Below, in pieces: positions 27,475 through 57,183 of a stretch of 57,808 bases of DNA. Position 1 is the first letter of the stretch; every line of letters begins with the position of its first letter. The notes beneath the pieces were generated by a model. The model searched no databases and was not told the origin of the DNA. It worked only from the letters and a program-made list of their open reading frames with translations. This DNA is from Bacteroidaceae bacterium (GTDB lineage Bacteria > Bacteroidota > Bacteroidia > Bacteroidales > Bacteroidaceae), in NCBI GenBank assembly GCA_017448825.1, contig JAFSKR010000004.1:1-57808 (forward strand), written 5' to 3'. The position numbers were made by a program, and so were the translations under genes.

Positions 27475-27537
27475 ATTTTTATGTTTAGGCTAAATAGTTG
27501 AGAGAAATGCCTTATCTCAGGTTTTCGGTGTTTATTC

Positions 27538-27697
27538 GTCCTTCTTTTTGGTGTTTGCTCAATTCTTCTTTTTGGTGTTTGCTCGGTCTTCTTTTTGCTG
27601 TTTGCTCGGTTCTCATTTTATTGTTTGCTCGGTTCTCATTTTATTGTTTGCTTGGTAGTCTTTTAATTGTTTACTCGGTCTTCTTTTTATTATTCCC
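27538..27697. repeat. 23-nt tandem repeat array B (about seven units)
   Basis: Seven successive imperfect units of 23 nt (one of 24), of the form GGTTCTCATTTTATTGTTTG plus CTC, at 27538, 27561, 27585, 27608, 27631, 27654 and 27677. The unit sequence differs from array A but the period is the same. As 23 is not a multiple of three, the 69-codon open frame across it is not a gene. It lies about 200 nt before sprA. Confidence 0.85.
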
Positions 27698-38667: not shown

Positions 38668-38702
38668 CTCCAACCACAAACCGAGGAGGTTCGTGGCTGG
38701 AG
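38658..38702 (-). terminator. terminator of the fimbrial operon
   Basis: The inverted repeat at 38668-38702 (CTCCAACCAC... pairing with GTGGCTGGAG), followed on the minus strand by nine T, is a strong Rho-independent terminator 59 nt after the last fimbrillin stop. Confidence 0.9.
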
Positions 38703-38760: not shown

Positions 38761-40233
38761 TTATGAACCAGAAGAGGGGACAACATTAGAGGGCAGCCAA
38801 ATGACAGTGGCAGAGCTGCCGCTACCGCTTGTGGCATCTTCCCAGTCAGAAACGGATGCCGCGAACTTGACGCTGGTAAGACCGAGGTGGATGATAATCT
38901 TATAGTATTTATTAGGTTCCAAGGCACTGATGTCCACACTGTTAGTGATGGTCTGCATGACTTTCGAGCAGGTGGCAGACTCACCAGAAGGAGTTGCCAA
39001 ATTGGCATCGTAAGTACGCACGGTGTACTGCACCGTCACCTCTAGCGATGCGTCCGAGACTGGGATGAAGTAAAGCTCATTTCCGCCAGAAGTTAACACG
39101 CTTTGAACGACTGTTGTGACACCACCCATTGACCACTTGTCAGAGGTGTATGTGGGTGCTGTAGATGTCTCCCAAAGATTGGTGTTATAACCAGTTGTTG
39201 ACGAATTATACGTAGTAGAGAACGTCAGGGCTGTAGAACCAGCAGTCCATTCTCCCGTGGCGAGGTCGAAGACACCATCAGCCTTGAGGGTGCTGGAGCC
39301 ACCGCTCTCACCGTTCTTAATCGTGATACTATTCAGAGTGATAAGAGTTGCATCAGGCTTTGTGCCTATACCTGCTGTAGCAGGAGTAGAAGAATTTGCA
39401 TCAATATCAGCCACCACTTGAATGCCCGAACCATCAGAAGCACCAAGCTTTGCGAGTGCGTGCTTGAAGGCAAAGTTCACCTTCTCCTCGGTAGTCTGCT
39501 TGGTGAGGTTGACGTTATAGTTCGAACCCAAAGCCTCTTTCGTGCTACTATTAGCGACATTGTATCCAGTACTTTTACTTCCGTTCATTCCCCACAGCAA
39601 GTCCACATTGTTGGCAGCAGTAATGTCGTATGTCGTCACATCACCAGTTGTCGTGTTCTTGAACTTGTACGTCACCTTAGGGTCGCCAGTAGCAGCATTT
39701 CCTGTAAGGGCAGTGATGCCCTCGGTGGCTTCAGAAGGAACACCTGAGCTTGCTGTAACCGCTACGTAAGGAGCGTACGCAAAGAAGCTCAAATACTGTC
39801 TCCCAGATTGGCTTGCCGTATTGGAAGGGGTATTAGCAGAGTTGGCTGCATCCGTTCCGTTAGGCCAGTACTTCAATGGAGTGTATGTCCAAGCAGAAGA
39901 GCTGTATTCCACCTTCTGGTTATACATGAAGTCGGGCTTGTAAGTTTCAAAGGCAGTTGCATCAGTCAAAGTGGAAGTTCCCGTATTATAGGCGAACACA
40001 CCGAATTCATAGCCCGTGCTGCCGAGTTTGTTTCCGCTTGTAGCATCATAGTTGACAATACCACCTGTTGCTCCCGCCCTTGTTGTTCCAGTCTTTCCCA
40101 TGTATGTGCCAAACTGCACAGCAATGGGAGCATCGTTTTTGCTTTGCAGTGATTCCTGCGTGAAATCTACCTGCTCTGTACAACCGGCCAGCGTCATGGC
40201 TGCCGTTGCTGCGATGAATAAATAGCGTTTCAT
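38761..40233 (-). CDS. fimbrillin family lipoprotein (distal gene)
   Basis: Mfa/FimA-type fimbrillin of 490 residues with a lipoprotein signal (MKRYLFIAATAAMTLAGC, lipobox Cys18). In this family the precursor is anchored in the outer membrane and matured by a gingipain-like protease before strand-exchange polymerisation. The family region around WTYTPLKYWPNGTDAAN and QYLSFFAYAP is nearly identical to the fimbrillin at 43181. An ATG two codons upstream (40239) is also possible. It is the last gene of the operon, 85 nt after the DUF5119 gene. It could be the shaft subunit or a tip component. Confidence 0.82.
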   Translation of the reverse strand: MKRYLFIAATAAMTLAGCTEQVDFTQESLQSKNDAPIAVQFGTYMGKTGTTRAGATGGIVNYDATSGNKLGSTGYEFGVFAYNTGTSTLTDATAFETYKPDFMYNQKVEYSSSAWTYTPLKYWPNGTDAANSANTPSNTASQSGRQYLSFFAYAPYVAVTASSGVPSEATEGITALTGNAATGDPKVTYKFKNTTTGDVTTYDITAANNVDLLWGMNGSKSTGYNVANSSTKEALGSNYNVNLTKQTTEEKVNFAFKHALAKLGASDGSGIQVVADIDANSSTPATAGIGTKPDATLITLNSITIKNGESGGSSTLKADGVFDLATGEWTAGSTALTFSTTYNSSTTGYNTNLWETSTAPTYTSDKWSMGGVTTVVQSVLTSGGNELYFIPVSDASLEVTVQYTVRTYDANLATPSGESATCSKVMQTITNSVDISALEPNKYYKIIIHLGLTSVKFAASVSDWEDATSGSGSSATVIWLPSNVVPSSGS

Positions 40234-40324
40234 AAGCATAAAATTTTAGTTAGTAATAAAATATATTTTTTTCTTCTATTCTTCTTAATCGTGTTGTCTA
40301 TCAGTTCTTCGTATGGCCCGTGCC

Positions 40325-41425
40325 TTAGAAGCCTCCGATGTTGAGCGTTCCTCCGTCTTCCCATTCCACCACCTTGGCATCGAAGCCCGCATTGGTACGG
40401 GGATTGTCGATGGGCGGCATGACGATGACATCGCGGAGGTCGAGCTCCAGCTTCAGGTCGTGCAGATCCTGACGGTAGCGTATCTGCGCCTCGCGTCCCT
40501 CGGGAGTGAGGTAACGTATGTCTTTGCCCACGTTGAAGACGCACTCCTGCACGGAGTCGTTAGCAAGCGTGATACGGAAGGTGAGCACGTTGTCTTCGGG
40601 GTTGCGCTCTGCCAGCAGTTCCTTTCCGTGAGGCAGTCCGAAGGTAACGGTCTTGTTGACGATGAGACCCATCGAGTCACTCTCCTCGCCCTCGGTGTAG
40701 AACTCCCACCCATTGGGGTCTAACTCTATGGTGCCCGTCTCGCGTGTGCGGTATATCTGACTCATGTAGAACCCTTCTGCCATACCGCTGATGCTGGCCT
40801 CTATGCTCTTCAGGCTCTGACGGTGCTTCACCTTCGCCTTGATGTAAAGGGTGACGGTCATGGGCGTTGCCACCTCAGGTATCTCATACACACGCTCGCT
40901 GACGTGGTAGTCGGTTAGCTCCTTCTCAATATCGCTGTGGTAGGGAACGAAGATGCTGGTGTCTGAGGCGACCATATCCTGGGTGATGTCGAACGTATCC
41001 ACGGCTACGCCTATGGGGTCGGGATAGTAGATGTAAGGCAGTGCATCGTTGCCACGTGTGTAGTGGCTCAGGCGCATGGCGATATTCTCGAAGCTCTGTG
41101 CGTCGTAGATGCTCATGTAGGGCTGGAACTCCTCCACGCGATCATTGAAGATAAGCAAGTGGTAGGTGTCCGGCACAAGCATCACCGACACAGAGCTACC
41201 GTTGACAGACTCCATGACGCGGGTGCCTGTGTTCACGCCCCACAGCATGAGCGTCATGCCATTGGGTGCCTCGTTGTATATCTCGGTGAAGTTCACCTGC
41301 CAGTTGATGACAATCTTGACACGCACCCTACTCTCGACGATGACCTCCAACGGACGCCTTTCGCAAGCGACAACAGCAAAAACCATCGCCAGAAGACCAC
41401 AGACAATTGACTTCAAACTATTCAT
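40325..41425 (-). CDS. DUF5119 lipoprotein of the fimbrial operon
   Basis: A 366-residue lipoprotein with the signal LLAMVFAVVACERR (Cys at about 21). It matches DUF5119 proteins, found in Bacteroidota fimbrial operons beside DUF3868 and fimbrillin genes and related to Mfa2/FimB-like anchors. The start is the ATG at 41425, preceded by a strong AGGAGG Shine-Dalgarno five bases upstream, rare in this phylum; the open frame also has a GTG two codons earlier. It overlaps the end of the DUF3868 gene by 8 nt. A role as anchor or length terminator of the fimbria is inferred from family context. Confidence 0.83.
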   Translation of the reverse strand: MNSLKSIVCGLLAMVFAVVACERRPLEVIVESRVRVKIVINWQVNFTEIYNEAPNGMTLMLWGVNTGTRVMESVNGSSVSVMLVPDTYHLLIFNDRVEEFQPYMSIYDAQSFENIAMRLSHYTRGNDALPYIYYPDPIGVAVDTFDITQDMVASDTSIFVPYHSDIEKELTDYHVSERVYEIPEVATPMTVTLYIKAKVKHRQSLKSIEASISGMAEGFYMSQIYRTRETGTIELDPNGWEFYTEGEESDSMGLIVNKTVTFGLPHGKELLAERNPEDNVLTFRITLANDSVQECVFNVGKDIRYLTPEGREAQIRYRQDLHDLKLELDLRDVIVMPPIDNPRTNAGFDAKVVEWEDGGTLNIGGF

Positions 41426-43151
41426 GGGCACCTCCTTTCTGCTTTTTCAGGCTGGGTATGAGCCATACGAGCGAGAGCTTCAACTTGGTGGGGCCTACGT
41501 AGGACGTGTGACCCGTGTATTTCCAAATCAAGTGGGTGTCGTCGAACTCTCCCTTGTAGTGGCGGCGCGGTCCCCAGAAATAACCGGCACTGACGGAGGC
41601 CTCGAGATTCCAGTGGCGGGAGAGCGGCCAACAATAGCCGTAGGTCAGTCCCACACTGTTGAACTCGCCCTGGTCGCCCTTACTGTTCCACTCCACGTCG
41701 TACTTGCCGTTGGCATAGTAGAGTCCAAGGAAGGGGCCAGTGAGCCGCGGCCTTGCCTGTGGGCATGCACCCTGCCACCAGTAGCGCAACTCGACACCCA
41801 GGGTCCAAAGTTCGTAGGCACTGGTCTTCATGTCGTTGCCCGGTCGCACATAGCGTCCGATGCTGATGTTGCCGCCCTTGTTGTGGAGCAGCCAAGGGAA
41901 CCAGTCCTCCACCATCAGGCTCCACCTGTTCCCGATGGGCACTTCCACCTCCACGTTGGGCGTAAACAGCAGGTCGAAGAGCATATTGGTCTTCAAAGCT
42001 ATCCACGGACGAGTGGGTGTCATATAGGTCACGATGTCGGGTTGCAACGAGTCGATGGCGATGGAAGTACCCGCACTGACGATGGTGTCGGGACTCACCG
42101 CGGCAGGCCCGCCTCCCGTGTAGTGGCGTCGCTCGTAAGTGATGGTATATTCCGTGCGGCGCAAGGCAGGGAAGCAATCACGCAGCAACAGTTGGTATGC
42201 CGCAGGATAGCGGGCGGCTATGACGGCAAGCTGATGGTCTGGGTCGGCATCGCCGTTGTCGATGATGCTCAGAATATGGCTGGCATCGGGTATGTCGGCG
42301 CGGTGGGCTTCCACATACTGTCGCAGCCCCTGCCAGTCTTCCGCCTCACTGTCGGTGTGCAGTTGTTCGGAAGGCACGCCCCAGCTGCCCGTGATGTACT
42401 GGCGCAATCGCTCCGTACGTCCCTGCGACAGCCTGACGTTGTTGGCATACGAGCCTTCGGGCGAGGCATAACCCTTGATGGTGTATTGCGGGTTGATGAT
42501 GTCGGGATTGTTCCTCACGGAGTCTATGCTTGAGCGTATCTTCTCCAGTTCCGTGCGGTTGGCTGCCAGCGAGGGGTTGAAGTCCGTCCTGTTGACCACA
42601 AACTGTATTCTTGCCTCACCCTTCACGGTGTCGGTGGTCATCCGCAAAGGTGTGGGGGTGGGCAAAATGACCGTCGTGTCACCGGGGATAGCCGCAATAC
42701 TGGTATGAACATCCAGACAACGCTGGTCGCAAGGGTCGCCCTGCTGAAGGATCAGCTTGAGCCGGGAGTCGTTCATCCATGACTGCCATGCAATGGTGCG
42801 TGCATACTGCTCGCGGCGCGGTGCGCCCTTATAACGTATGCGATAAGCGTTGGCGGGTATGTCAGCGGTCGTAATGCCGTGGCGCACATCACGGTAGTAG
42901 GCATCGCGCCCGAAGACAGCTATCGGTGGGAAGTCGATGGAGTCAGCAGTCCCCACGAGGCGTGGGGTGAGCACCACCACGTCGCGGCGCGAGAGTTTGC
43001 TGCCGTCAAGGGTCACCGTCAGCGAGAGCTGCACGCTGCCACCGCAGCGCACCAGCCGCACACTGTCAGCTGCCACAGGACACTGACCGCGGGCGATGAC
43101 TACCATCAACAGCAGCACTACGACGATGATATGTACTCTATATGGTCTCAC
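41418..43151 (-). CDS. DUF3868 / OmpA-like / DUF3575 fimbrial assembly protein
   Basis: A 577-residue outer-membrane protein. A signal peptide (about 1-22, start GTG) precedes a DUF3868 N-terminal domain. An OmpA-like segment (GYASPEGSYANNVRLSQGR, about 250-268) follows. The C-terminal DUF3575 barrel-like domain runs from about residue 385 (ALKTNMLFDLLFTPNVEVEV) to the end with GLTYGYCWPLSRHWNLE. Proteins of this layout accompany fimbrillin genes in Bacteroidota and are thought to assist assembly or anchor the structure to the cell wall. It lies 29 nt after the upstream fimbrillin and overlaps the DUF5119 gene, so the three are translationally linked. Confidence 0.85.
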   Translation of the reverse strand: MRPYRVHIIVVVLLLMVVIARGQCPVAADSVRLVRCGGSVQLSLTVTLDGSKLSRRDVVVLTPRLVGTADSIDFPPIAVFGRDAYYRDVRHGITTADIPANAYRIRYKGAPRREQYARTIAWQSWMNDSRLKLILQQGDPCDQRCLDVHTSIAAIPGDTTVILPTPTPLRMTTDTVKGEARIQFVVNRTDFNPSLAANRTELEKIRSSIDSVRNNPDIINPQYTIKGYASPEGSYANNVRLSQGRTERLRQYITGSWGVPSEQLHTDSEAEDWQGLRQYVEAHRADIPDASHILSIIDNGDADPDHQLAVIAARYPAAYQLLLRDCFPALRRTEYTITYERRHYTGGGPAAVSPDTIVSAGTSIAIDSLQPDIVTYMTPTRPWIALKTNMLFDLLFTPNVEVEVPIGNRWSLMVEDWFPWLLHNKGGNISIGRYVRPGNDMKTSAYELWTLGVELRYWWQGACPQARPRLTGPFLGLYYANGKYDVEWNSKGDQGEFNSVGLTYGYCWPLSRHWNLEASVSAGYFWGPRRHYKGEFDDTHLIWKYTGHTSYVGPTKLKLSLVWLIPSLKKQKGGAHE

Positions 43152-43180
43152 TTTTTTAACGCTTAATTCTTAATTTTTCT

Positions 43181-44314
43181 TTACCACTGCTCTGCCTCTT
43201 GGGTGCGCAACAAATAGCTCTCCACTTCTCCGCCGTCGATGACGAAGATGACGGTGTACTTCTTTCCCATGGCCAATGCCCATCCGCCCGTAGGCTGGGT
43301 GAAGGTGATGGTGCTGGAAGGGGTCTTGGCGGTGCCGCCAAGAGTGTAGCTGAGCGTGAAGGGTATGGTGAGCGTCCCCTCGTAGGGCATGAGGAGCAGG
43401 AGGTTGGGCGTGTAGTTGGTCAGCGCATGTGCCGTCTCGTCGGTATAGGCGGTGACACCCGTCTTCGACGCGTCAGTACTATGCGTTCCCGTTAGGTCGG
43501 TATTGATGTTGGCGGCATCATAGGTGATGGTGCCAACATCTGAAGTGAGGGTGCTCCATGCCGAAGTGCCAAGGTTGAAGGTGCCGCTGGTGTTGAAGCT
43601 GGCTTGAGCGGTGGAGGTGGCAGTCGCTGCACTGCTGCTGTTCAGCGCCAGACTGGTAAGGATGATAGGCAAACCAGTTTCATCCTTGCGCCGCACCTTG
43701 AACTCGATGGCTGTGAGGGCATGGTGGAACTCGAAAGACACCTTGGACGTCACGTCGGGTCTTGTCAAGTTTTTCTGCGGAGCGGCATAGAGCAGGTCGG
43801 CCTGGTCTGTGGGGTTGACGTTGTTAACCCAAGCGTAGGCAATGGTGGGTGCACCCGTGGTGCTGTTGGTGCTCGGTGTGAGACCAGTGCCGTTGTGGGG
43901 GGCGTAGGCGAAGAAGCTGAGGTACTGCGTCGCTAACTCTGTCGCCGTGTTCGACGGGTTGTCTTCTTCATTGGCGGCATCCGTGCCGTTAGGCCAGTAT
44001 TTCACGGGCGAGTAGGTCCATTCGCTGCCGCTCACCTGCTGGTTCCACATGAAGTTGGGCGTGGCAGTGCCAGAGGCAGTGTCCCAGTCGCTGTTGCCCG
44101 TATGGTAGGCGAACACGCCAAAGCCCTGCGTCTGCAGGTCGCTGATGTCGTTGACCACGCTGCGTGTCTGGAAGGCAGGCACACTGGCATGGAAACTCAC
44201 CGCCATCGGCTCCGAACCTTTGTCCACAGCCTCTGACACCTCGTCGCCACTACATGCCGACAGCATCAACACGGCGACCGCCATCCACGTCCATATATGA
44301 TATTTACTCCACAT
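43181..44314 (-). CDS. fimbrillin family lipoprotein (proximal gene)
   Basis: A 377-residue Mfa-like fimbrillin with a lipoprotein signal (MWSKYHIWTWMAVAVLMLSAC, positions 1-21, lipobox Cys21). It shares the WTYSPVKYWPNGTDAAN and QYLSFFAYAP blocks with the distal fimbrillin, so the two are paralogues. The start at 44314 lies 11 nt inside the end of the giant gene, so the two are translationally coupled; an ATG five codons earlier (44329) is possible but gives a poorer signal peptide. Confidence 0.83.
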   Translation of the reverse strand: MWSKYHIWTWMAVAVLMLSACSGDEVSEAVDKGSEPMAVSFHASVPAFQTRSVVNDISDLQTQGFGVFAYHTGNSDWDTASGTATPNFMWNQQVSGSEWTYSPVKYWPNGTDAANEEDNPSNTATELATQYLSFFAYAPHNGTGLTPSTNSTTGAPTIAYAWVNNVNPTDQADLLYAAPQKNLTRPDVTSKVSFEFHHALTAIEFKVRRKDETGLPIILTSLALNSSSAATATSTAQASFNTSGTFNLGTSAWSTLTSDVGTITYDAANINTDLTGTHSTDASKTGVTAYTDETAHALTNYTPNLLLLMPYEGTLTIPFTLSYTLGGTAKTPSSTITFTQPTGGWALAMGKKYTVIFVIDGGEVESYLLRTQEAEQW

Positions 44315-47300
44315 ACACTTTCTTTCCATTGATTATATACACACCGCTCTTTACTACCTTGCGCCACGTACCGTCAGCCACCTGCTCGCTCGTAGCTACG
44401 CGACGACCTTGCAGGTCGTAAACACCCTCGGCTGCATGGCGGTCAAACATCGGCATTTGCTCCTCTATGTCCGCCTCGCCGAACCACAAGGGGATGAACT
44501 GGCGTGGACGTGCGCTGCCACCACTGTTGCCAGAATAATGATCCGAATTAGGATAATCACCCTCAACCGTCTTCTCGAAAAGGTATATCTTGTTATGACG
44601 CACATAGAGATTATTCCTATTCGAATACTCGGTACTGCCGTCGGTGGTGTTCTTGTTGATGTAGAAGCCAGCCTCCAGCTTTGGATGACTTTCACCGTCC
44701 TCCAGCGTGCGGTTGGGGTCATCGGGGATGGTGGTGTAGTCTTCCTCTGTTGCTTGTCCGAACACATAAACGCTCTCACCCGATGCTGGCACGTCTGTTA
44801 CTTCCGTTCCTGAGAGCACCTGCTCCAGATATTTGCCCTGGAAGATGTTGGTGCTCTCTGCCGACAGTTCTGCTGGTGCATCGTTGGGGATGGTCAGCGA
44901 AATGTAGAAGGCTTTTTCGTCCTTGCGGTCGTAATTATAGCCCTTGAAGCTGTCCTCCTGCGACTGTGCTCCCACAGCGGCACGGACGAGCACAGGTGTT
45001 CCGGCAGGGAACAGCTTCCCTTTTTCGTAAACCTGTCCGCCCACGCTTCGAGCAATCACCTTCTCGCACTGCAATCGCCAGTCCTTCTCTGTGCCCTTTC
45101 CGTCGTTCTTCGTCAACTTGCCTGCATAGGCATAGACATTGCCATCGGGAATCACCACGTCGTAGGGCACGTAGAGGGTGCCAAAGTAGAAGGTCTGCTG
45201 TCCCACCGCCTCGTCGGTGTAGAGAGCAGGATAGAGCTGCATCTTCAGGGGCAACAGGTTCTCGTCCGCACTGCCGATGGGCTGCATATAGAAGCGTGTC
45301 TTGTACAGGCCCGCCTGCTCGTCGAAGCAGTGGTTGATGCTGGTCTCGTCGGTACCGGCACAACTCAGGTAGTCGTAGTGTCTATCATCATCTTCGCTCT
45401 GTGACTTCAGTTGCATGATGCCAGCACCGATGTCCTCGTAGCGGCACTTGTAGCCGTCGCCCGTGTTCATCCCATTGCCTGTCAGACCAAGACCCTGCGT
45501 ATGGACGTAGTAGCGTGGGTAACTGCCCTCTGTAGTACTGCCAAACCAAAGCACGCTGGCAGGGTCATACATAGCTTCGTTGAGGGTCTCCACCTTCATG
45601 TTGCGGTTCATGCCGCTGCTGGCGGTACGCTCGTTCTCGTAGAGGTAGCCACGCACATAGCGGCGCTCACCGTTGTTCTTCTCCCATGTGTAGGGGATGA
45701 GGCGGTAGTAGCCCTGTGCCATCTGCACAATGTTGGTGGGATTGTCTGCGAGGTCGTGCAGTGCCTGCAACTCTGCTTCGGTGGCGTTGCCGTCATCAAT
45801 CTTCGCCTTGATGTCGGCGATGTCCATCGTCTCTTCGCCTACCTCCACTGTTCCGTTGGTCACGAGGTCGTAATCCAACGAACCCACCATGCCGGCATAG
45901 TCCAGATATTCCTTCAGTGTGGCGTCCGAACGTCGCTCCAGTCGGAAGTTGGCAGCCGAGTTGGCGCGCAGGGCATTGGCGGTGCTGGTCATGAGGATGG
46001 CGGCAGAGCCGTTGTAGTTCTGACCCATGTAACTCAGCTCGTCGAAGCCGTCGGTCGGCTCTTCTATAGTGCTGACAGAATAGACAGGGTGTATCCAGAA
46101 GTTGTAGCTGTACAGTCCGGGCATCATCTCGAAGATGTGCTGGCTGTTGCTTGCAGCCTGTTTGAACATACACTTGCCAGAGGAAGTGTCCACGTCACTG
46201 GTGACGGAGATGAACTCGTCGAAGCGGTGGTCGGGGTCGTAGCGGTTGAGCATACGGAAGCCGTAGGGGTCGCCAATGACACACCACTCATAGTTGTTCA
46301 GGTAGAGCTGGTCGCTGACGAGGTCGGTGCTGATGCGCAGCTTCGGATCGCTGTCGCGGTGTACCATCTTGCCCAGAATGCCGTTGGGGCGGTGGTTGTT
46401 CACGAGGTAGTACCAGTGCTTGCCGGTGTAGTTGCCTGTGGTGCTGCTCCACTGGAACGGGGCGAGGGTCGTGTAGTCGTAGGTCACGTGGACGTAAAGG
46501 TAGGCATCCTTGTGACTGTTGTAGGCATCCACCATGCTTTGACTGACGGTAGTGACGGTCGTGCCCGACGGCGTGGACTCTGTGGATGATGTGCCCCAGT
46601 CGTATGTATATTTGCAGAAGGAACGCTTCCATGCCTTGGGCAGTACGTCGTCTAAGGCTTTGTCTAACTTCTGGTAGGAGTCAACCTTGATGGTCTCCGT
46701 AGTGCCAGCGGCAGTAGCGTCTAAGACACCATCGTTGTCGCTGTCGTACTTACGCAACGTATTGTCTGAGTAGTGCAACACGAAGGCTATCTTCACCACG
46801 CCGTAGGTGTTGCTGAAGTCTGCAGCCGTTCCGCCAGCACCGTTATAGGTCTGGAGCGTGGCAGAGGCGTTGATATAGGTGCCTGTGGCTGCATCGTAGA
46901 TGGCACAGAGGTTGCCCGAATAGTCATCATAAAGGGTGAAGGCCGTACCCTCGGCACCCATTGTCAGCGTCTCGCCGTTGGAGGTGAGGTAGGTTCCCGT
47001 CTCCTTGTTGTAGAACTTCACGCTGTATGGCGAGCCTACCAGTGCCCACCGGCAGTACTGATAATTGGCAAAGTCTCTGAGGGCACTGACCGATACCGCA
47101 TTCTGGCTGCTTACGCCGTTGGTCGTGTCATAGTAGATGTACTTAGCTACTTCCGGGTAGCCTATCTCGTACCAGTATTTCTCTGCCGTCGATGACGTAG
47201 GCGTTGCGCTGAGGAAGTCCGGTGCCCCGCTGTCGAGAATGTAGGGCACATAGACATCGGTGGCTGCCGTGACGGTGACGCTGTTACCTGAATAGACTAC

Positions 47301-50300: not shown

Positions 50301-53300
50301 GTCGCTGACCTTGTAGCTGACGAAGATTTCACCGTTTGGTGCCACCGTGGTCACGTTCGACGTGGTGCGGTTGGTCTGGGCATCTTCCAATGAGGAGTGG
50401 TAGTAGTACTGCTCCACCATCGGACTCTGATACTCCTTCGGCACGGCGAAGCCGGCACCCGTGTAGGTGAGTGCGTCGAAGACATCGGCACCTGAGTTGT
50501 CGATGATGTGGTAGGTGATGGGCGTGGTGATTAGGGTGGTCTGTGCGTGCGTGGTATTGCCTGCGGGCTGGTCATCGGCCTGCTCTGCCAATGCCGTGAA
50601 GCCCTGCACCACTTGCGAGTGGTCGAAGCGCGGCATCAGCCGCATATTGCCGTTGCCGTCCTGCACCGCCATGAAGGTGGCATTGGTGATGGCGAGGGTT
50701 GTCTGGTCGTAGCCTGTGGCACCGTAAGTGCTGGTGGCGTTGGTCAGACTCAGCGTCGTGCCATTGCCTGTCCATGCGCCGCTACTGAGGGTGGCTGCAC
50801 TGGCGTTGGTAGTAAAATAGGTCGAGGCACCGACGTTCTGGATGCGTAGGTTGTAGGGGTCGAAGCCGTTGCGACCGTAAGTGCCGTAGTTCTCGTCGTT
50901 GAAGTACGTGCTTTCAAGCTCAGACTGCGATGGTTCCGAATTGCCCGTTCCATTGTTATACTGGTAGCCCATCTCGGCATCGATGTTGAAGTTGGGCCTC
51001 AGATACCAGTTGTCAGCTGTCGCAACATCGGTCGTGGTTGTGATGGTGCTGCCATTGGCCTTGGCGTAGTTACTGCCTTGGCGGACGAGGAACTGCGAGG
51101 CACTGATGCCATCCTCGGTAGCTGCGCCTATATAGCTGTTGGCATATTCGTCCTTCACGTCGTAGATGACGTAGAGGTCGGTCAGGGCACCGCCGCTGGT
51201 CACCTCAGGATAGTCAGCCAGCGAGGTGATGGTCTTGTCGGCATCTACACGGGTGCTGGCAGCGAGTGGGGTCTTGCTGCCGGTATTGGTAATGATGTCG
51301 AACTTATGGTAGCCATAGACCTTGTGGTTGACGTTGCGTGTGGAGTAGAACTTGTAGTTCTTCACCATCGGGCTGTCGTACTTCTTGAGGGCGGCCTGTA
51401 CGGTGGCGTAGTCTGGGTCGTCGTGTTCTACGATGGGCTGGCGCATGATTTCCCAGCCGTGGTTGTCCAAGAGCACGAGCACACCGTCGATGTTGGCCTC
51501 CACGAGGTCGAAGGAGCCGTTGCCCAGCTGTATGCTCTGGTACCAATGCTCGCCGTTGGCATAGCTCTTGTTCGCCGAGCCGGTGCCGCCCGTCCATCCT
51601 GCGGCGTTCACCCAGGCGTTGTAGTTGTGCCAGCCCTTGTTCTGCAGCGTAGTCTTCTCTGTTGCTGTCAGCTCTCCGTTGTTGCTTTCACTGCGCCCAG
51701 CCTGTATCTGTGCCGTCGGGTTGTTGCGCCAGTACTGCTCCAAAGAGGTCACGTCGCGGCGTTCCGTTGTCGTTCCGTTGTCGATTGCTGCCACAGTCGT
51801 CAGCTTGTAGGTACCGTTGCTGTCATCAGCGCGAAGCAGCATATATTCGGTAGGCAGAATCTGCTGGCTGTTGCCATCGACAGTACGCGGGTCGTCGGTG
51901 ACGTTGTTGGTGACGATACCCACACCACTTTGATAGAAGGTGCGCAGATATGAGTAGTAGTTGGTGCCGCTGTTGGCGTGTGAGTTCTGCCATGAGGTGA
52001 TATACACATGGTAGGGGTCGCCGGTGGGACTGACGAGGAACCACGGCCACCGTGTGCGGGTGGAGGCACCGTTGTCCTTCTGGTCCTGATAGCGGCTATC
52101 GGTGTAGATGTACATCGGACCATCGCCGTTGGTATAGGGATAGACGGTGGTGCCAGCAGGTGTTTCAGCCGTTTCCACCTTGTCACTGCCGTCCTCTGAG
52201 TGATAGGCGGCACTGGTCTTGAACTTCAGCAAGTACATCTTGCCGAAACTGTCAGCGTTGCGCACCAGTGTAGCTTCTGTTGCCGAGCGGGCCACGCGGG
52301 TGTTCATCAAGTCGTTAAGGCTGCTGAAGCTGCTGCTGTTCAGATCGATGGCATCGCTGACCTCATAGCCCACATAGACGGTATTATCGGTGCTGCTCCA
52401 GTCGAAGAGGTTGCTGCCGCTGTTGTTCTGAGCGTCTGCCTTGGTGCTGTAGTAGTAATAGCGTGTCACCAACGGACTGCGCCAGCTGTTGTTCAGCGGG
52501 TCGGCATTGCGCCCAGAGATGCTGTTGGGCTCTTCGACACGTGATTTCGGCACGTTGCTCTCGGTAAACAATTCGTTGCCCGACTTGTCCACGAGAATCA
52601 GCGTATAGTTGTCGGAGCCTACAACGAACGGGCGGACGGTGGCGGTGATAGTCACAACACTGCCTGCTTGTGATTCGTCAGTAGTATAAAGAGGCGACTC
52701 CGTATCTCCGTTTGCGTATGCCTTAGCACGGAAGTTGAAGGTGCCTTCAGATGATGGTGTAAAGGCGTAGGTCACGGTAACCACCCCCTCGCCATCCTTT
52801 TCTGCTTCTCCAGTAACGTTCGCTCCTTCGTATGCCGTACCGACGACCTCCCATGTGTTTGTGCTTGTCTCTTGCTCTATGGCGAAATAAGTAACGTTTT
52901 GACCAGCAGATGGTGTGGCTGTTGCTGTCAACGTTACTGGCTCGTCAACGTATGTAGTATTGCTGAGTGCACTAAGGGTCAACGTAGCTGCAATAGTCGT
53001 CGATGCCTTGTAGGTGTATTGATAGGCTCGGCAGTTCACATTGTCGGTAGGATTAAGAGAGTTAGAATTTGCATAGAGAAAGAAATAAGGAGCCTCGCCA
53101 TTGGCACTGCCTTGCGGCATGATGGCAGGCAGCGAACGGTAGGTTTCACTCACATGGCTGTTGTTGAAGTCGCGCATCTCCCATACCGTAGCGACAGCAC
53201 TGCTCTCTGCATACATCTTGGCTTTGGAGGCATCAGAGCCGGTCAGCGTCATATCAGCTCCGGCAAACAAACCCTTGTTCGAAGCGTCCCTGTTGACCAG

Positions 53301-56300
53301 CTTCAAGGCGTATGGGGAGCCATAAAGTGCCCAGTGGGAGTTGTCGGCTGTTGTGCTGGTAGTCGCATTACTGCCAGCACTGCCAATGCTGTGGTCGCCT
53401 GAGGTGCCGGCATTCAGATAGTTGCTGTTACCAAAGCAGACGGCATACCAGTACTGGGTGGTGCTGGTACTGGTCAAAAACAGGTTCTCGGTGTTCCACT
53501 TGGTATCAAGCTCATAAGACATATAGATGTTGCTGCCGTCAAACTTGGTGGCATCGAAGGTACTACCTGCCGTGATGGCTTTGCTGCATGCTGCATCATA
53601 GTAAAATGTATGGTTGCTGGTGTAGGTACGTTTGAGGAAGAAGGGTACGAACGAGGGCATAGTGGCGGCACTGTTGTAATAGCCGTGCATGGTGTATTCC
53701 ACCGCATGTGTGGTGGGGTTCACTACGTTGACATTGAGTTCAGGCAGCTCTTTGATGTAGATTTTAGAGCCTTCGGTGTAGGCATTATTGGAAGAATTGC
53801 TGACGCGCCAGTTTCCACCGTCACTGCTTTGGTACATGACATGATAGTCTGTTGCACTGTTTGTCCCCTTGTACCTGACGGAGAAATAGTCCTGATTAGA
53901 TGTGTCACCCTCCCAATAGAGCAGGCAGTAGGAATTGGCTGGTTTTGAGGTCACCAAGCCTCCATTACTGTTTCCTGTTGGAGATGCATAACGTCCTGTG
54001 CCTACATTCTGGAAATAGAAGTTATAAGGGTCGTCGCCCAACGTCCACATATAGTTATTGTCGATGAAAGGAAGTGTAGAGGCCAGGACGGTGTTAGCAT
54101 TGGTATTGTCGTTGCTTAAGTCTTTGTCCTGATTGTAGAGACAGAAGAGATTATTATAAGTATGGCTCTCGTCGGCACGAACTACAGCATGCATGTAGCG
54201 GTCGTTAGCATATATAGCGTATTTCTTTGTCGATGCCATCTTCGTAGCATCAACTAAGTATCCCACGTAGATGTCCTCCTGGTTCCAGAACGACGGGGTT
54301 CCGCTGTTGGCCTGCGCCTCCGCCTGTGAGTCGAAGTAGAGGTATGACGAGACGAAGGGGCTGCGGTACAGGTTGGCAAGCGGATCGTTATTGCCTCCCG
54401 ATACTGTAGCGTGGGTCACTGCCTGAGTGAACACCTCGTTGCCAGCGTTGTCGATGAGGTGGAGGGTGTAGTCACCGTCATAGGGCAGATCGTCCACCAC
54501 ACTGACGGCTACGGCACCAGCACTTGCAGCCGTTGCACCATCATCGGTGGTCTTAACTACTGTGGCATCGGCATCGGTGAGAACGGCACGGAATATGTAT
54601 GTACTAAGGTCGGTGGGAGTGAACGTCTGGGTGTATTCGGTGTCCGAAACAGGGTCGGTCACCGTGGCGATGTCGGTGAACTCGCTGTCGGCTCCGCCAG
54701 TGGTCTTATACTGGAACTTCAGACTGGTGAGTGCGCCCTTGCCGTTCCATACGGGCGTTGCCTTCAGCGTAACAGTGCTGTTCACCTGTGCTGCAGATAC
54801 ATTGGACGAGAGCGTCACGGTTGGGTCGGAAGGCTCAAAGTCGGCGGTCTTCTGTATGAATACGTAATCAAGAGCTACGTTGCTGGTTCCACTGTGATAA
54901 ATGGTGACTGTCTTGTCCTCCTTGACAGTGAACTCGTCGGTGGTGTATTCCGTCAACTGGTCTTTTGTCGCACCGGGATAATTGCCCACTTCATTGGCAG
55001 CATCTGTGCCACCTACGCGGATGGAGTAGTAGCCACCGTCGTTGCTGGCACTGGCCACCACACCGATAGTCACCTTGTAGGTGCCTGGCTCCAAGGTGGT
55101 GATGGTGCCGAAGTTGTTGTTGTCACGCCTAACACCGCTACCAGCAGAGCAAAGAGCCTCCACTCTGCCTTGGAAAGAATTCCAGTTAGTGGTGTGGTCG
55201 GGAACAACACCACCGTGACCGCTAATATCCTCGGCCTCGGTATAGAACACCACATTCTCATTTTCCTTCGCATAGGTGTATGGCTCGCTGATGCCGGCAA
55301 TGTTGACACTGAGATAGTTGCCATACCACGGTTGGGAGATGGTGTTGCTTGATTGTGTCATGGCTCCATTGCCCGAAGTCTTGTAGAGTGTGGTGCCCTC
55401 CAGAATATAGCGCGGTATATAGTATTTTACATTGGTAGCCTCATCGTAGTAGCCGCTGCTTAGTGTCTTGGTGGCTACTGTTGTCCCGTTCTCTTGCAGG
55501 TTGGCTGTTGCAAGGTAGGAATAACCATAGTCCTTGTCGAGTGCCGCCTGCTTGGCTGTTTTTGTTGCTCCTGGCAATAGTTGGTCAATGAGGTACTGGG
55601 CATCGCGCTTGATGAAGAGGTTGGTGGGATTATTGCGGTAGAGGGTTGTCAGTTCGTCGATATAGGTGAGTATCTTTGTCTCCATGCCGAAGTTCACCAC
55701 GTAGCCCTTCGATGCATCGTTGGTCTGCGCGTAGCTGCCCGTCGTCACGGTGCCGTCAGAGGAAGTCAGGGTGCAAGTAGTGCCGCCAGTGAGACCGGGA
55801 ATGTTGATGGTGAGTTCGCGGAACTGGTTCTTCTTGTATTTCGGCACTTTCACGTCGAAGGTGAGATTGCTGCCGTCCCACCCGACATTCTCTATCACCA
55901 CGTTGTGATAGATGTTGTAATACTCCCAGTACTCATCGGCGCTGGTCACCCACACCTTGTCCTTGTAAGTGGCATTCGTGGCAATGTCGGTGACCAGTTG
56001 TCTCGGATATGTGCCCATGCCGTGACATCCGTAGAAGATGGGGTCGGTGTTGCCCGCCGCTATGGCCGACTCCGTCTGTGTGAGGAAATTCTGCTCCTTC
56101 GTGGCATCGGCATTGGGGAAGGTGCGTGTTGTCGACCCGTTGCTCTTGCCAGAGAACGTGGTGGGCAGCGACGTCGTCCAAGTGCTGACGCTGTTGCTGA
56201 TGGCAGGGTGCGTGGCATCTGCCGACTGGAAGATGCTCCAGCACATCTCGTCGGATGCTGCCGTGGCATCAATGTATTTCTTGTCGCCGCCTGGCTCCAC

Positions 56301-57017
56301 CATGATTTTCAGCCCTATGCCCGTGACGTTGTTGGCCCACAACTCGCTCAGCGGTTGGAATCGCAAGGCGATGGATGCTATCTTCTCCTCGTCGGTGTCA
56401 CCAGTGATGTTGTTCACGTCGTGCTGGGCAAAACTCCATCCAGTGCGTATCATAATCTGCGCCTCGTCGCCCTGCATATGGGCATAATTGTTGTCATTGT
56501 AGGAGGCGGGCCAGATGGCACTTGTCGCCGTGAAGCGGTGCTCCTTGCCAGCATCATCGGTGAACGTCAATGGCTGGTAGTCGTTGACATCCTGGCTCCT
56601 GGCGCCCATATAGGTGGTGTTGTAAGGGGCGTTCAGTGCATCTTCGCCACGCGGACAGATGCCCCAGTTCACCTTCCCGTCGTTGCCCAACCGCCAGTCA
56701 CCATAGAGCGGGTATCCGTTCATTAGTGCCCAGTTATTAAGGTACTCGCCCGTGCCCATATCATCGGAAGTGATGACGAGGGCACACTGGCGGTTATACT
56801 TCACTTTTGCCATCTGCGGAGCACCAAGTCCTGTGCCGCCTTCGTCGGCATTATAGCTGGAGGCAGGTATGGTGACGGTGACGGTCTCGTAGCCCGTCAC
56901 GTCGGTCTGGGCATTGACACAAATACTGCTTCCGCCGCCGATGAAGAACAGCAGAAGCAACAATATATAGCAGAATGTCGCTATGTGCGCCTTTATGTAT
57001 CTACAAAAACCTCTCAT
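44304..57017 (-). CDS. giant modular secreted protein heading the fimbrial operon
   Basis: About 4,237 residues. The frame is open to an ATG at 57158, but a TATCTTTG promoter box ends 18 nt from that codon and the signal peptide (HIATFCYILLLLLFFIGGG, ending near VNAQ37) begins only after the ATG at 57017. Order: a polysaccharide-deacetylase-like domain (about 70-370; Asp85-Asp86, His199, His332), a carbohydrate-binding-like domain (about 590-730), an Ig-like domain (about 732-845), then ten copies of a repeat of roughly 250 residues. The copies are marked by W..xGxPY..xxxN near residues 996, 1235, 1669, 2055, 2313, 2573, 2823, 3063, 3330 and 3584. A second Ig-like domain lies at about 1342-1459. 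The C-terminus (GVYDLQGRRV ... GVYIINGKKVYVE) resembles a type IX sorting segment. It is co-directional and overlapping with a fimbrillin gene, so a surface adhesin is likely; the exact role is unknown. Confidence 0.85.
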   Translation of the reverse strand: MRGFCRYIKAHIATFCYILLLLLFFIGGGSSICVNAQTDVTGYETVTVTIPASSYNADEGGTGLGAPQMAKVKYNRQCALVITSDDMGTGEYLNNWALMNGYPLYGDWRLGNDGKVNWGICPRGEDALNAPYNTTYMGARSQDVNDYQPLTFTDDAGKEHRFTATSAIWPASYNDNNYAHMQGDEAQIMIRTGWSFAQHDVNNITGDTDEEKIASIALRFQPLSELWANNVTGIGLKIMVEPGGDKKYIDATAASDEMCWSIFQSADATHPAISNSVSTWTTSLPTTFSGKSNGSTTRTFPNADATKEQNFLTQTESAIAAGNTDPIFYGCHGMGTYPRQLVTDIATNATYKDKVWVTSADEYWEYYNIYHNVVIENVGWDGSNLTFDVKVPKYKKNQFRELTINIPGLTGGTTCTLTSSDGTVTTGSYAQTNDASKGYVVNFGMETKILTYIDELTTLYRNNPTNLFIKRDAQYLIDQLLPGATKTAKQAALDKDYGYSYLATANLQENGTTVATKTLSSGYYDEATNVKYYIPRYILEGTTLYKTSGNGAMTQSSNTISQPWYGNYLSVNIAGISEPYTYAKENENVVFYTEAEDISGHGGVVPDHTTNWNSFQGRVEALCSAGSGVRRDNNNFGTITTLEPGTYKVTIGVVASASNDGGYYSIRVGGTDAANEVGNYPGATKDQLTEYTTDEFTVKEDKTVTIYHSGTSNVALDYVFIQKTADFEPSDPTVTLSSNVSAAQVNSTVTLKATPVWNGKGALTSLKFQYKTTGGADSEFTDIATVTDPVSDTEYTQTFTPTDLSTYIFRAVLTDADATVVKTTDDGATAASAGAVAVSVVDDLPYDGDYTLHLIDNAGNEVFTQAVTHATVSGGNNDPLANLYRSPFVSSYLYFDSQAEAQANSGTPSFWNQEDIYVGYLVDATKMASTKKYAIYANDRYMHAVVRADESHTYNNLFCLYNQDKDLSNDNTNANTVLASTLPFIDNNYMWTLGDDPYNFYFQNVGTGRYASPTGNSNGGLVTSKPANSYCLLYWEGDTSNQDYFSVRYKGTNSATDYHVMYQSSDGGNWRVSNSSNNAYTEGSKIYIKELPELNVNVVNPTTHAVEYTMHGYYNSAATMPSFVPFFLKRTYTSNHTFYYDAACSKAITAGSTFDATKFDGSNIYMSYELDTKWNTENLFLTSTSTTQYWYAVCFGNSNYLNAGTSGDHSIGSAGSNATTSTTADNSHWALYGSPYALKLVNRDASNKGLFAGADMTLTGSDASKAKMYAESSAVATVWEMRDFNNSHVSETYRSLPAIMPQGSANGEAPYFFLYANSNSLNPTDNVNCRAYQYTYKASTTIAATLTLSALSNTTYVDEPVTLTATATPSAGQNVTYFAIEQETSTNTWEVVGTAYEGANVTGEAEKDGEGVVTVTYAFTPSSEGTFNFRAKAYANGDTESPLYTTDESQAGSVVTITATVRPFVVGSDNYTLILVDKSGNELFTESNVPKSRVEEPNSISGRNADPLNNSWRSPLVTRYYYYSTKADAQNNSGSNLFDWSSTDNTVYVGYEVSDAIDLNSSSFSSLNDLMNTRVARSATEATLVRNADSFGKMYLLKFKTSAAYHSEDGSDKVETAETPAGTTVYPYTNGDGPMYIYTDSRYQDQKDNGASTRTRWPWFLVSPTGDPYHVYITSWQNSHANSGTNYYSYLRTFYQSGVGIVTNNVTDDPRTVDGNSQQILPTEYMLLRADDSNGTYKLTTVAAIDNGTTTERRDVTSLEQYWRNNPTAQIQAGRSESNNGELTATEKTTLQNKGWHNYNAWVNAAGWTGGTGSANKSYANGEHWYQSIQLGNGSFDLVEANIDGVLVLLDNHGWEIMRQPIVEHDDPDYATVQAALKKYDSPMVKNYKFYSTRNVNHKVYGYHKFDIITNTGSKTPLAASTRVDADKTITSLADYPEVTSGGALTDLYVIYDVKDEYANSYIGAATEDGISASQFLVRQGSNYAKANGSTITTTTDVATADNWYLRPNFNIDAEMGYQYNNGTGNSEPSQSELESTYFNDENYGTYGRNGFDPYNLRIQNVGASTYFTTNASAATLSSGAWTGNGTTLSLTNATSTYGATGYDQTTLAITNATFMAVQDGNGNMRLMPRFDHSQVVQGFTALAEQADDQPAGNTTHAQTTLITTPITYHIIDNSGADVFDALTYTGAGFAVPKEYQSPMVEQYYYHSSLEDAQTNRTTSNVTTVAPNGEIFVSYKVSDDFNADKAYTIYGANSYMHACYRYGNDQDDSSKGKYLWWMQSQKVDRENGNAISLTTLPFLDNTYAWQVGETPDPYNVRFLNKGARRYLNQSTTGNDYRMEQLAIIETAGQIPATATPFCILYYGDDTDDCTLYNRTHNKYVYDNNGDWRANTSRTGDNRRLTITELPSISINVVNADNEVECTLEGYYKSGCTWSNSFTPFYLDRIYTSGHTFYYTLADATAGTNAISGTVNDATVTANGAVYVKYTLASNWGAAVDADDLTAKKTAQTIKVMPSPSNDKINWYALRTNNSKYVGASTTATPANLSEATSTNATTDAEADANKLAQWAFIGTPYNLKLVDRYHGMSNYLGISEEAANRSFAFIDDGTADITTWEVCTGYSNNVKLLIRPQRSLNGETPYLYIGWNGGAINMSLTMSTGGNQGLDLTWVKETDAKTLTFKLYDKDGTYMSPTVSDFTLTGVSAGDDIAAAFGHTDLQRRFCEYTFYSSYDAQTQTLSDPVTEAGSNAAETVYVKWDYTDYAPVFSTGSDVRDYQYYIMTVCASGSNYPYIIGVDDDGSGGYDFKIDQNIGSIREHKHQFALVGNPYSFKLYSRYADQYVGTPNQSGLQIGGGAADAVFDMQVPVSEMNITQFVARLKGTVRTVTCNPPHVWIAGANQGFLTLRDIIIPVHVFKEGMTEEANQMDYREYAMDLTSHLSTADRITDSQLTETGNAVGTAHDFRHAFCDYTFYRSYDWDTGDMDNLIPDEGLPYYGGKDQWKRQFFATYTVDHDGFDQIYLIKGSDGEGIYIGKNTESTHGYTLMGVNNKTDAKNDDTRSYRWQMIGDPYDLQIVNVGLGETRNSFPLAVKTVSDGTTVESEAAGTLALLTSEIPEDGNDTESYGQYSRWEIIAKSNGNYVFWNIDEGEALRYTKSLNRRYAAGNGGVVRMLASEVEMVLELPIERYAVSWHVMENDGSNNYSQVATAQVIVDENTTVVIEDMPASLKRHFCLYNNMYSNDACSVVYSGNSVTVTAATDVYVPYILDSGAPDFLSATPTSSTAEKYWYEIGYPEVAKYIYYDTTNGVSSQNAVSVSALRDFANYQYCRWALVGSPYSVKFYNKETGTYLTSNGETLTMGAEGTAFTLYDDYSGNLCAIYDAATGTYINASATLQTYNGAGGTAADFSNTYGVVKIAFVLHYSDNTLRKYDSDNDGVLDATAAGTTETIKVDSYQKLDKALDDVLPKAWKRSFCKYTYDWGTSSTESTPSGTTVTTVSQSMVDAYNSHKDAYLYVHVTYDYTTLAPFQWSSTTGNYTGKHWYYLVNNHRPNGILGKMVHRDSDPKLRISTDLVSDQLYLNNYEWCVIGDPYGFRMLNRYDPDHRFDEFISVTSDVDTSSGKCMFKQAASNSQHIFEMMPGLYSYNFWIHPVYSVSTIEEPTDGFDELSYMGQNYNGSAAILMTSTANALRANSAANFRLERRSDATLKEYLDYAGMVGSLDYDLVTNGTVEVGEETMDIADIKAKIDDGNATEAELQALHDLADNPTNIVQMAQGYYRLIPYTWEKNNGERRYVRGYLYENERTASSGMNRNMKVETLNEAMYDPASVLWFGSTTEGSYPRYYVHTQGLGLTGNGMNTGDGYKCRYEDIGAGIMQLKSQSEDDDRHYDYLSCAGTDETSINHCFDEQAGLYKTRFYMQPIGSADENLLPLKMQLYPALYTDEAVGQQTFYFGTLYVPYDVVIPDGNVYAYAGKLTKNDGKGTEKDWRLQCEKVIARSVGGQVYEKGKLFPAGTPVLVRAAVGAQSQEDSFKGYNYDRKDEKAFYISLTIPNDAPAELSAESTNIFQGKYLEQVLSGTEVTDVPASGESVYVFGQATEEDYTTIPDDPNRTLEDGESHPKLEAGFYINKNTTDGSTEYSNRNNLYVRHNKIYLFEKTVEGDYPNSDHYSGNSGGSARPRQFIPLWFGEADIEEQMPMFDRHAAEGVYDLQGRRVATSEQVADGTWRKVVKSGVYIINGKKVYVE

Positions 57018-57175: not shown

Positions 57176-57183
57176 CAAAGATA
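57176..57183 (-). promoter_or_regulatory. -7 element of the giant-fimbrillin operon
   Basis: TATCTTTG on the minus strand, a perfect -7 box, about 160 nt before the preferred start at 57017. No matching -33 element was found at the usual distance. Confidence 0.55.

Follow-up and report, generated by a model that had tools for sequence, protein, structure and literature searches.

Introduction

The pili of gut and oral Bacteroidales are of type V. As stated in extracts of a review (PMC12632263), very little is known about what they bind, and their anchor, stalk and tip pilins are made as lipoproteins that are cleaved near the N-terminus. The closest described system to the locus reported here is the Mfa1 fimbria of Porphyromonas gingivalis, with the shaft protein Mfa1, the anchor Mfa2, the adaptor Mfa3, and Mfa4 and Mfa5. 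Mfa5 is a T9SS-dependent protein of 1228 aa located at the tip (PMC7835359, in excerpt), and Mfa3 binds Mfa1, Mfa4 and the T9SS-secreted Mfa5 (PMC5954841, in excerpt). According to excerpts of a study of Mfa1 (PMC5789003), a conserved tryptophan starts the flexible C-terminal tail of this pilin, which no longer polymerises once its last six residues are removed; Mfa4, a tip protein, is short at its C-terminus, Mfa3 tolerates loss of its last nine residues, the anchor Mfa2 is without the arginine site, and the identity of the donor strand was left open. In Prevotella intermedia, a short T9SS signal comprises the motifs B (YDLxGR), D (GVYI) and E (KK) (PMC11969387, in excerpt).

We here analyze a 57,808-nt stretch of DNA from a Bacteroidaceae bacterium, a relative of gut Prevotella, referred to as the window, which holds an operon headed by a giant gene. 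As in the Mfa1 fimbria, type V pilins are clustered with one exceptionally large multi-domain protein. The giants of this family are however about 2.7-6.0 k aa long against the 1228 aa of Mfa5, i.e. 2-5 times larger, and the vWF domain was not found in a Pfam scan of the window giant. Moreover, the partner pilin ends in QW, the cluster includes DUF5119 and DUF3575/OmpA genes, and the giant and fimbrillin genes overlap, whereas mfa5 is transcribed apart from mfa1-4. While Mfa5 is described as a large T9SS-dependent tip protein (excerpts of PMC7835359 and PMC5954841), a tip position and T9SS export are here suggested by the genes.

Results

Organization of the operon

On the minus strand, the window encodes, in this order, the giant, a fimbrillin ending in QW, a DUF3575/OmpA protein, a DUF5119 protein and a further fimbrillin (Table 1). 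The original prediction of a giant of roughly 4,240 residues agrees with the 4237 aa obtained from an in-frame ATG at 57017, which we prefer as the start because a clear signal peptide begins there. The predicted overlap with a fimbrillin gene was likewise recovered, P0002 overlapping the 3' end of the giant gene by 26 nt, as were the overlaps or short gaps leading to a strong terminator: P0002 and P0003 are separated by 29 nt, P0004 overlaps P0003 by 14 nt (8 nt counted from the P0004 ATG), and P0004 and P0005 lie 85 nt apart, the largest gap, ahead of the site at 38702-38668. The four fimbrial genes of that prediction, in turn, comprise two fimbrillins, one DUF5119 protein and one DUF3868/OmpA/DUF3575 protein.

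Terminator-like sites on both strands amount to 16, compared to 15.5 in shuffled sequence, so that only position and strength support a terminator at 38702-38668. The remaining minus-strand sites between the end of P0005 and the giant start (56962, 50834, 41655 and 38826) are all intragenic and have poorer T runs, and a further one is located upstream of the giant at 57659-57631. The TAnnTTTG box at 57183-57176, presumably the -7 element of Bacteroidota, is the sole intergenic one on the minus strand of the operon; another falls inside P0003. A single transcript from the giant through P0005 is plausible. Upstream of the giant, 650 bp remain before the contig ends. We consider the observation real, since an open frame of 4.2 k codons is not given by chance and the neighbourhood recurs.

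Table 1 Features of the operon and of the T9SS translocon gene in the window.
Feature	Position	Strand	Evidence
Giant gene P0001	44304..57158	-	4284 aa from first ATG (ORF list)
PF15421 putative polysaccharide deacetylase domain	55551..56813	-	P0001 residues 116-536; 71.4 bits, E 7.2e-20
Array of diverged ~300-aa modules	46677..54473	-	P0001 residues 896-3494; 9 profile matches
C-terminal T9SS-type signal, short form	44304..44486	-	YDLQGRRV ... GVYIINGKK
P0002, fimbrillin lipoprotein ending AEQW-COOH; candidate terminal/adaptor pilin	43181..44329	-	PDB 4qb7, E 1.8e-10
P0003, DUF3868 / OmpA-like / DUF3575 protein	41418..43151	-	DUF3575 111.4 bits, over cut-off
P0004, DUF5119 lipoprotein; candidate anchor	40325..41431	-	DUF5119 56.9 bits
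P0005, fimbrillin without QW end; candidate shaft pilin	38761..40239	-	PDB 4qb7, E 2.8e-4
TATCTTTG box, candidate -7 promoter element	57176..57183	-	Just upstream of giant; TAnnTTTG consensus
Intrinsic terminator-like site	38668..38702	-	3' of P0005; 15-pair stem, 8 G-C pairs, then nine T
Sov/SprA, T9SS outer-membrane translocon	27900..35540	+	TIGR04189 2678.7 bits; outside operon

Putative deacetylase head and module array of the giant

PF15421 was the only family matched in the Pfam scan of P0001 at E <= 0.1, scoring above the gathering cut-off of 28.5 bits and being covered nearly end to end (profile positions 20-434 of 439). The domain was aligned with that of four other ORFs, one of which (L148) was left out owing to a wrong frame. 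In the four rows counted, the TxDD motif and the histidine of HxV are kept throughout, the latter followed by asparagine in three, and a later histidine is also present in 4/4, within GxH in three. By analogy with deacetylases in general, the conserved Asp-Asp and the two histidines may be the metal-binding residues. PF15421 is present in one of 45 genus genomes, that of the window, and in 7/301 family genomes, again including it. The other six family copies reside on ORFs of 331-1179 aa; compared to such Polysacc_deac_3 ORFs, the window copy retains nearly the whole domain with its Asp and His residues but is fused to a giant, an arrangement seen only here.

The array that follows consists of modules with about 23-39% identity between copies, and pairwise matches suggest an extra copy reaching to approximately residue 3720. 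The module profile matches 54 of the 57 ORFs of at least 1,900 aa in the window and the 65 loci described below, nine times in the window giant and 4-9 times in others; it failed to match Sov/SprA, the cut giant of L121 and a different ORF in L090. No Pfam family scored over its cut-off on the module and no PDB sequence matched at E <= 1. By eye, the module seemed to combine a small beta domain and a trefoil-like region bearing a W...DPY motif, suggestive of a lectin. RicinB_lectin_2, however, was touched by only 2/50 members (best E 0.088), and since these matches are few and weak and no PDB sequence matched, we leave the fold without assignment. A CBM-like stretch after the deacetylase, at around residues 560-815, was likewise noticed by eye only and matched no other ORF then compared.

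Putative export signal and export machinery

The C-terminus of the giant contains motifs B, D and E of the short CTD as defined in the excerpted PMC11969387. These are alike and similarly spaced in the short-CTD T9SS cargo of Prevotella intermedia described there, whereas the cargo size differs and the window copy is sub-threshold for TIGR04183 (13.1 and 15.7 bits, cut-off 23). The same profile matches 9/9 members of alignment A1 at E <= 1, and in alignment A5 the positions V22, D24, G27, R28, V30, G48, Y50, I51 and K56 are invariant in all nine members. Both Sov/SprA, encoded in the window, and PorU (NF033707, 957.4 bits, cut-off 420) are present in the genome, and Sov/SprA is the likely export route of the giant, judging from these assignments. 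A profile of the giants' C-termini gives 19 matches in this genome at E <= 0.1, the giant included and the weakest possibly due to chance, as would be expected of a shared export signal.

Two further observations were made in the same genome. A tandem array of a ~23-bp unit in about 7 copies occupies positions 27522-27691 of the window, just upstream of sov/sprA. Elsewhere, a second giant of 4,223 aa with a short CTD end is found (L191, G000:C36:2224-15676, GVYIFNGRKVVIK); 13 bp downstream of it lies the gene of a 255-aa lipoprotein, which is fimbrillin-like by a loose profile and does not end in QW.

A fimbrillin class ending at tryptophan

P0002 belongs to a fimbrillin alignment (A3, 14 sequences) whose profile matches PDB 4qb7, 4k4k and 3ufi, which we take to be type V pilins. 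PF13149 is detected in 10/14 members and is absent from P0002 itself. At the positions of Cys26 and Arg56 of P0002, this alignment is nearly invariant (90% or more). The fimbrillin profiles used throughout are our own iterated ones, which can drift.

Of the 682 distinct ORFs with at least 200 aa, 47 carry the [ED]QW end, and 46 of these are fimbrillins by profile, the 47th (L109) looking like one; 45/47 share a locus with a giant or a large piece of one. Among fimbrillins adjoining a large ORF (1,300 aa or more, same strand), the end is found in 24/26 upstream and 16/17 downstream, compared to 6/67 of the other fimbrillin matches, and each of these six has a giant a few ORFs away at most or a cut giant next to it. 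The exceptions are a fimbrillin ending in EQM (L096), one beside a 2,552-aa ORF without module match, and one ORF cut by the fetched end. QW fimbrillins keep the lipobox cysteine, and a loose arginine-site pattern is detected in 36/46 of them versus 59/64 other fimbrillins. In 39/41 other fimbrillins under 560 aa, 10-40 residues follow the last tryptophan.

From this pattern, the tryptophan of EQW appears to correspond to the Mfa1-type tryptophan. P0002 has the usual N-terminal-side arginine and should therefore be able to accept a strand, and as its chain stops at the tryptophan that precedes the polymerising tail of shaft pilins, it should cap the pilus. We infer that a pilin with the arginine site but without the tail is a terminal pilin, a tip pilin needing no tail.

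For the remaining proteins, the DUF3868 and OmpA matches of P0003 fall just below their cut-offs. The family profile of P0004 matches 5cag (E 1.2e-24), an entry without functional name, and Cys23 and Trp357, the latter 11 residues before the end, are invariant in 7/7 DUF5119 sequences. DUF5119 was considered as a fimbrillin relative and dropped, as the profile comparison aligned the signal peptide only; a search of the open-licence literature for DUF5119 gave no match.

Distribution of the giants

The first 2,937 residues of the giant are matched in 12 of 101 genomes, that of the window included. Eight of these are other genomes of the genus that match in the module region, in frames of ~2,970-5,900 aa, and three match in the deacetylase part only, in frames of 359-498 aa, one with an internal stop. 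The module profile matches 21/399 family genomes, eight of them (including that of the window) in the window's genus and several others weakly. The distribution of the giant family is patchy.

Scanning species genomes with the C-terminal alignment yielded 65 loci from 59 assemblies (by accession). The record titles of 46/65 name a ruminant, rumen or the RUG project, the last presumably standing for rumen genomes, and the records include Prevotella sp. tc2-28, which is not titled a MAG. A fimbrillin is a direct same-strand neighbour of the giant in 39/65 loci, preceding it in 23 (type 1) and following it in 16 (type 2), ignoring ORFs under 150 aa, allowing gaps up to 836 bp and using our own fimbrillin profile. 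Type 1 giants are ~2,760-3,670 aa, and in the uncut ones compared the signal peptide gives way to a YHILT-type stretch, the second half of the L084 giant excepted. Type 2 giants in the 65 loci are cut at the flank, one to 214 aa; whole copies measure 5,212-6,001 aa.

A tree of the giants' core unites 38 type 1 rows in a single group (99/97) and places the window giant outside this group, with the only two type 2 rows that it contains. The tree was built from 41 of the 49 matched rows; the other eight, all type 2, were dropped for length, and six further type 2 giants lack a core match because their loci are cut. As long branches meet and the composition of the window is unusual, we claim only that the window giant is not inside type 1.

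Recurrence of the gene neighbourhood

Additional DNA or whole-genome searches revealed four more direct neighbours (L102, L097, L086 and L114), and six loci have at most two intervening ORFs (L084, where the giant is split, L088, L100, L104, L109 and L111), so that a fimbrillin adjoins the giant or sits within two ORFs in 49/65 loci. Most of the others are cut. The upstream side is cut in eight (L091, L093, L108, L110, L132, L133, L135 and L137), a cut upstream ORF is not a fimbrillin by profile in L101 and L081, the L115 giant starts at the contig end (38 bp), L082 and L123 are short ORFs, and L131 is broken beside a QW fimbrillin; in L125 the QW fimbrillin is on the other strand, and in L113 the nearest fimbrillin is about 3 kb off. 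We note that the L115 giant and a contig-end fimbrillin (G394:C21:72-998) are possibly one locus broken between contigs, and that the giant of L084 (1137-11161) is split into overlapping ORFs of 1317 and 2023 aa, through a frame break or an assembly error.

In genomes of the window's genus, a fimbrillin is next to the giant or one ORF away in 8/9 giant loci. Fimbrillin matches per genus genome number only 0-15, with 34/45 genomes having any, and the adjacency is therefore far above background. In one genus genome (G004, L022-L023, G004:C1:93311-103108), a 3,265-aa module protein has no fimbrillin by profile within 34 kb and no CTD-like end.

DUF5119 is present in 30/36 genomes with type 1-like loci. 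On comparing coordinates by hand, a same-strand DUF5119 gene was located ~0.4-10 kb upstream of the fimbrillin-giant pair in 22/36 such loci. Among the 14 others, the contig ends within about 1.6 kb in seven, while that of L109 breaks off about 11 kb upstream in a run of fimbrillins; in the remaining six (L086, L096, L105, L106, L113 and L126) upstream DNA exists and holds no DUF5119. From the 22, we fetched 20 loci, L094 and L102 apart, where the giant is in most stretches a cut N-terminal piece identified by coordinates. The order DUF3575/OmpA, DUF5119, fimbrillin(s), QW fimbrillin, giant is present in 16/20, sometimes with one or two other ORFs between, a count that describes order and not frequency since the loci were chosen for DUF5119. 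The exceptions are L162 and L165, without a separate shaft fimbrillin, L170, without DUF3575/OmpA, and L173, where DUF3575/OmpA would fall off the contig; local ORF picking had hidden DUF5119 (L170 and L171) and fimbrillin (L170) genes behind antisense ORFs. All 19 QW ORFs in these loci pass the fimbrillin profile. The window contains the same five families, in another order.

Discussion

Based on the gene set and the terminal sequences, we propose, with a probability of about 0.57, that the operon gives rise to a split-tip type V pilus, in which a terminal pilin carries a separately exported T9SS giant. P0005 would build the shaft, with P0004 (DUF5119) as its lipid anchor and P0003 as an outer-membrane part. 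The giant would leave the cell through the T9SS, and P0002 would cap the pilus and carry the giant, by analogy with Mfa3. Since relatives carry the same gene set, the giant is probably the binding end of the pilus; its module repeats may act as a long multi-site binder of polysaccharide, which the deacetylase head, special to this species, would then modify. Compared to the pilins covered in the excerpted PMC12632263, the tip-type pilin would here stop at the tryptophan, with the binding part provided as a separate T9SS-type protein.

In the original prediction, the giant was an adhesin, accessory or at the tip, or a large surface fibre, produced along with the fimbria. Recurring neighbourhoods, the T9SS-type C-terminus and the [ED]QW fimbrillin are in agreement with such an adhesin, as a reading of sequence. 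The prediction also proposed searching other genomes for the same gene order; the five families were found together in 16/20 loci chosen for DUF5119, in an order different from that of the window. Its statement that no described fimbrial system has such a component was too strong, Mfa5 being a direct precedent (PMC7835359, in excerpt), although nothing close to this size appeared among the matches listed from the open-licence literature. No title among these matches names such a giant from a cluster of type V pilus genes. The deacetylase head, the export signal and the recurrence of the five-gene set are additions beyond that prediction.

The giant could alternatively be a free-standing surface fibre, with the QW fimbrillin as its lipoprotein anchor or surface partner outside the pilus and the shaft operon as a neighbour of related origin. 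The retained lipobox cysteine of QW fimbrillins would suit such a role, as would the type 2 arrangement, where giant and QW fimbrillin make up a unit of two genes and most other fimbrillin-type genes are encoded on the opposite strand, and the G004 module giant without a fimbrillin nearby. We nevertheless regard this as less likely, as in the window and in 16/20 fetched type 1 loci the pair runs in the direction of the DUF3575/OmpA, DUF5119 and further fimbrillin genes, and QW fimbrillins mostly (36/46) keep the arginine site, which is absent from the anchor Mfa2 (PMC5789003, in excerpt).

T9SS cargo proteins are often enzymes. Together with the deacetylase head of the window giant, this would fit a secreted or surface carbohydrate-active protein that is merely co-regulated with the pilus, an explanation we find improbable, because PF15421 is on no other giant and it is the module array and the QW partner that recur, not the enzyme. 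An artefact of assembly, or genes adjacent by chance, is very unlikely to explain the neighbourhood in the window, although the assembly consists of 75 contigs and the contig ends 650 bp from the giant; with the same families together in many assemblies (65 loci, 59 assemblies), including Prevotella sp. tc2-28, this explanation is untenable for the family.

Returning to the split-tip pilus, we tentatively suggest, while rating it somewhat short of an even chance, that the [ED]QW-COOH pilin is a non-polymerising cap whose free tryptophan end serves as a docking code for one T9SS-delivered giant, and that swapping of heads changes the function of the pilus. Freed from the need to be made as a pilin, such a tip could grow to 3-6 thousand residues. 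One class of tip-type pilin can be recognised by the QW signature, a simple mark in the sequence that also lets the joining of a T9SS product to a pilus be tested directly. The recurring pilus cluster with its giant, mostly from ruminant Prevotellaceae, is a candidate means of holding plant or host glycans.

Loci of other composition were also encountered. In G433, G461, G468 and G202, one to five fimbrillins by profile, none of them a QW fimbrillin, lie near two large module-bearing ORFs, one of 4.1-4.3 k aa and the other of 5.0-8.4 k aa (the 5.0 k copy being cut), and in G232 the fetched stretch holds no fimbrillin. In L174-L182 (G433, G461 and G468) and L183-L184 (G202), where the fimbrillins precede the two giants, the one of ~4.1-4.3 k aa has GG(N)xYGGGN-type repeats and a CTD-like end, and the one of 7.9-8.4 k aa (5.0 k, cut, in G202) is without a CTD-like end. 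Finally, small genes occur among or near the fimbrillin and giant genes of L033/L034 (G040), L030 (G014), L021 (G039) and L031 (G034), which resemble GNAT acetyltransferases, RhuM-like proteins (three near-copies in G039) or a nucleotidyltransferase in sequence.
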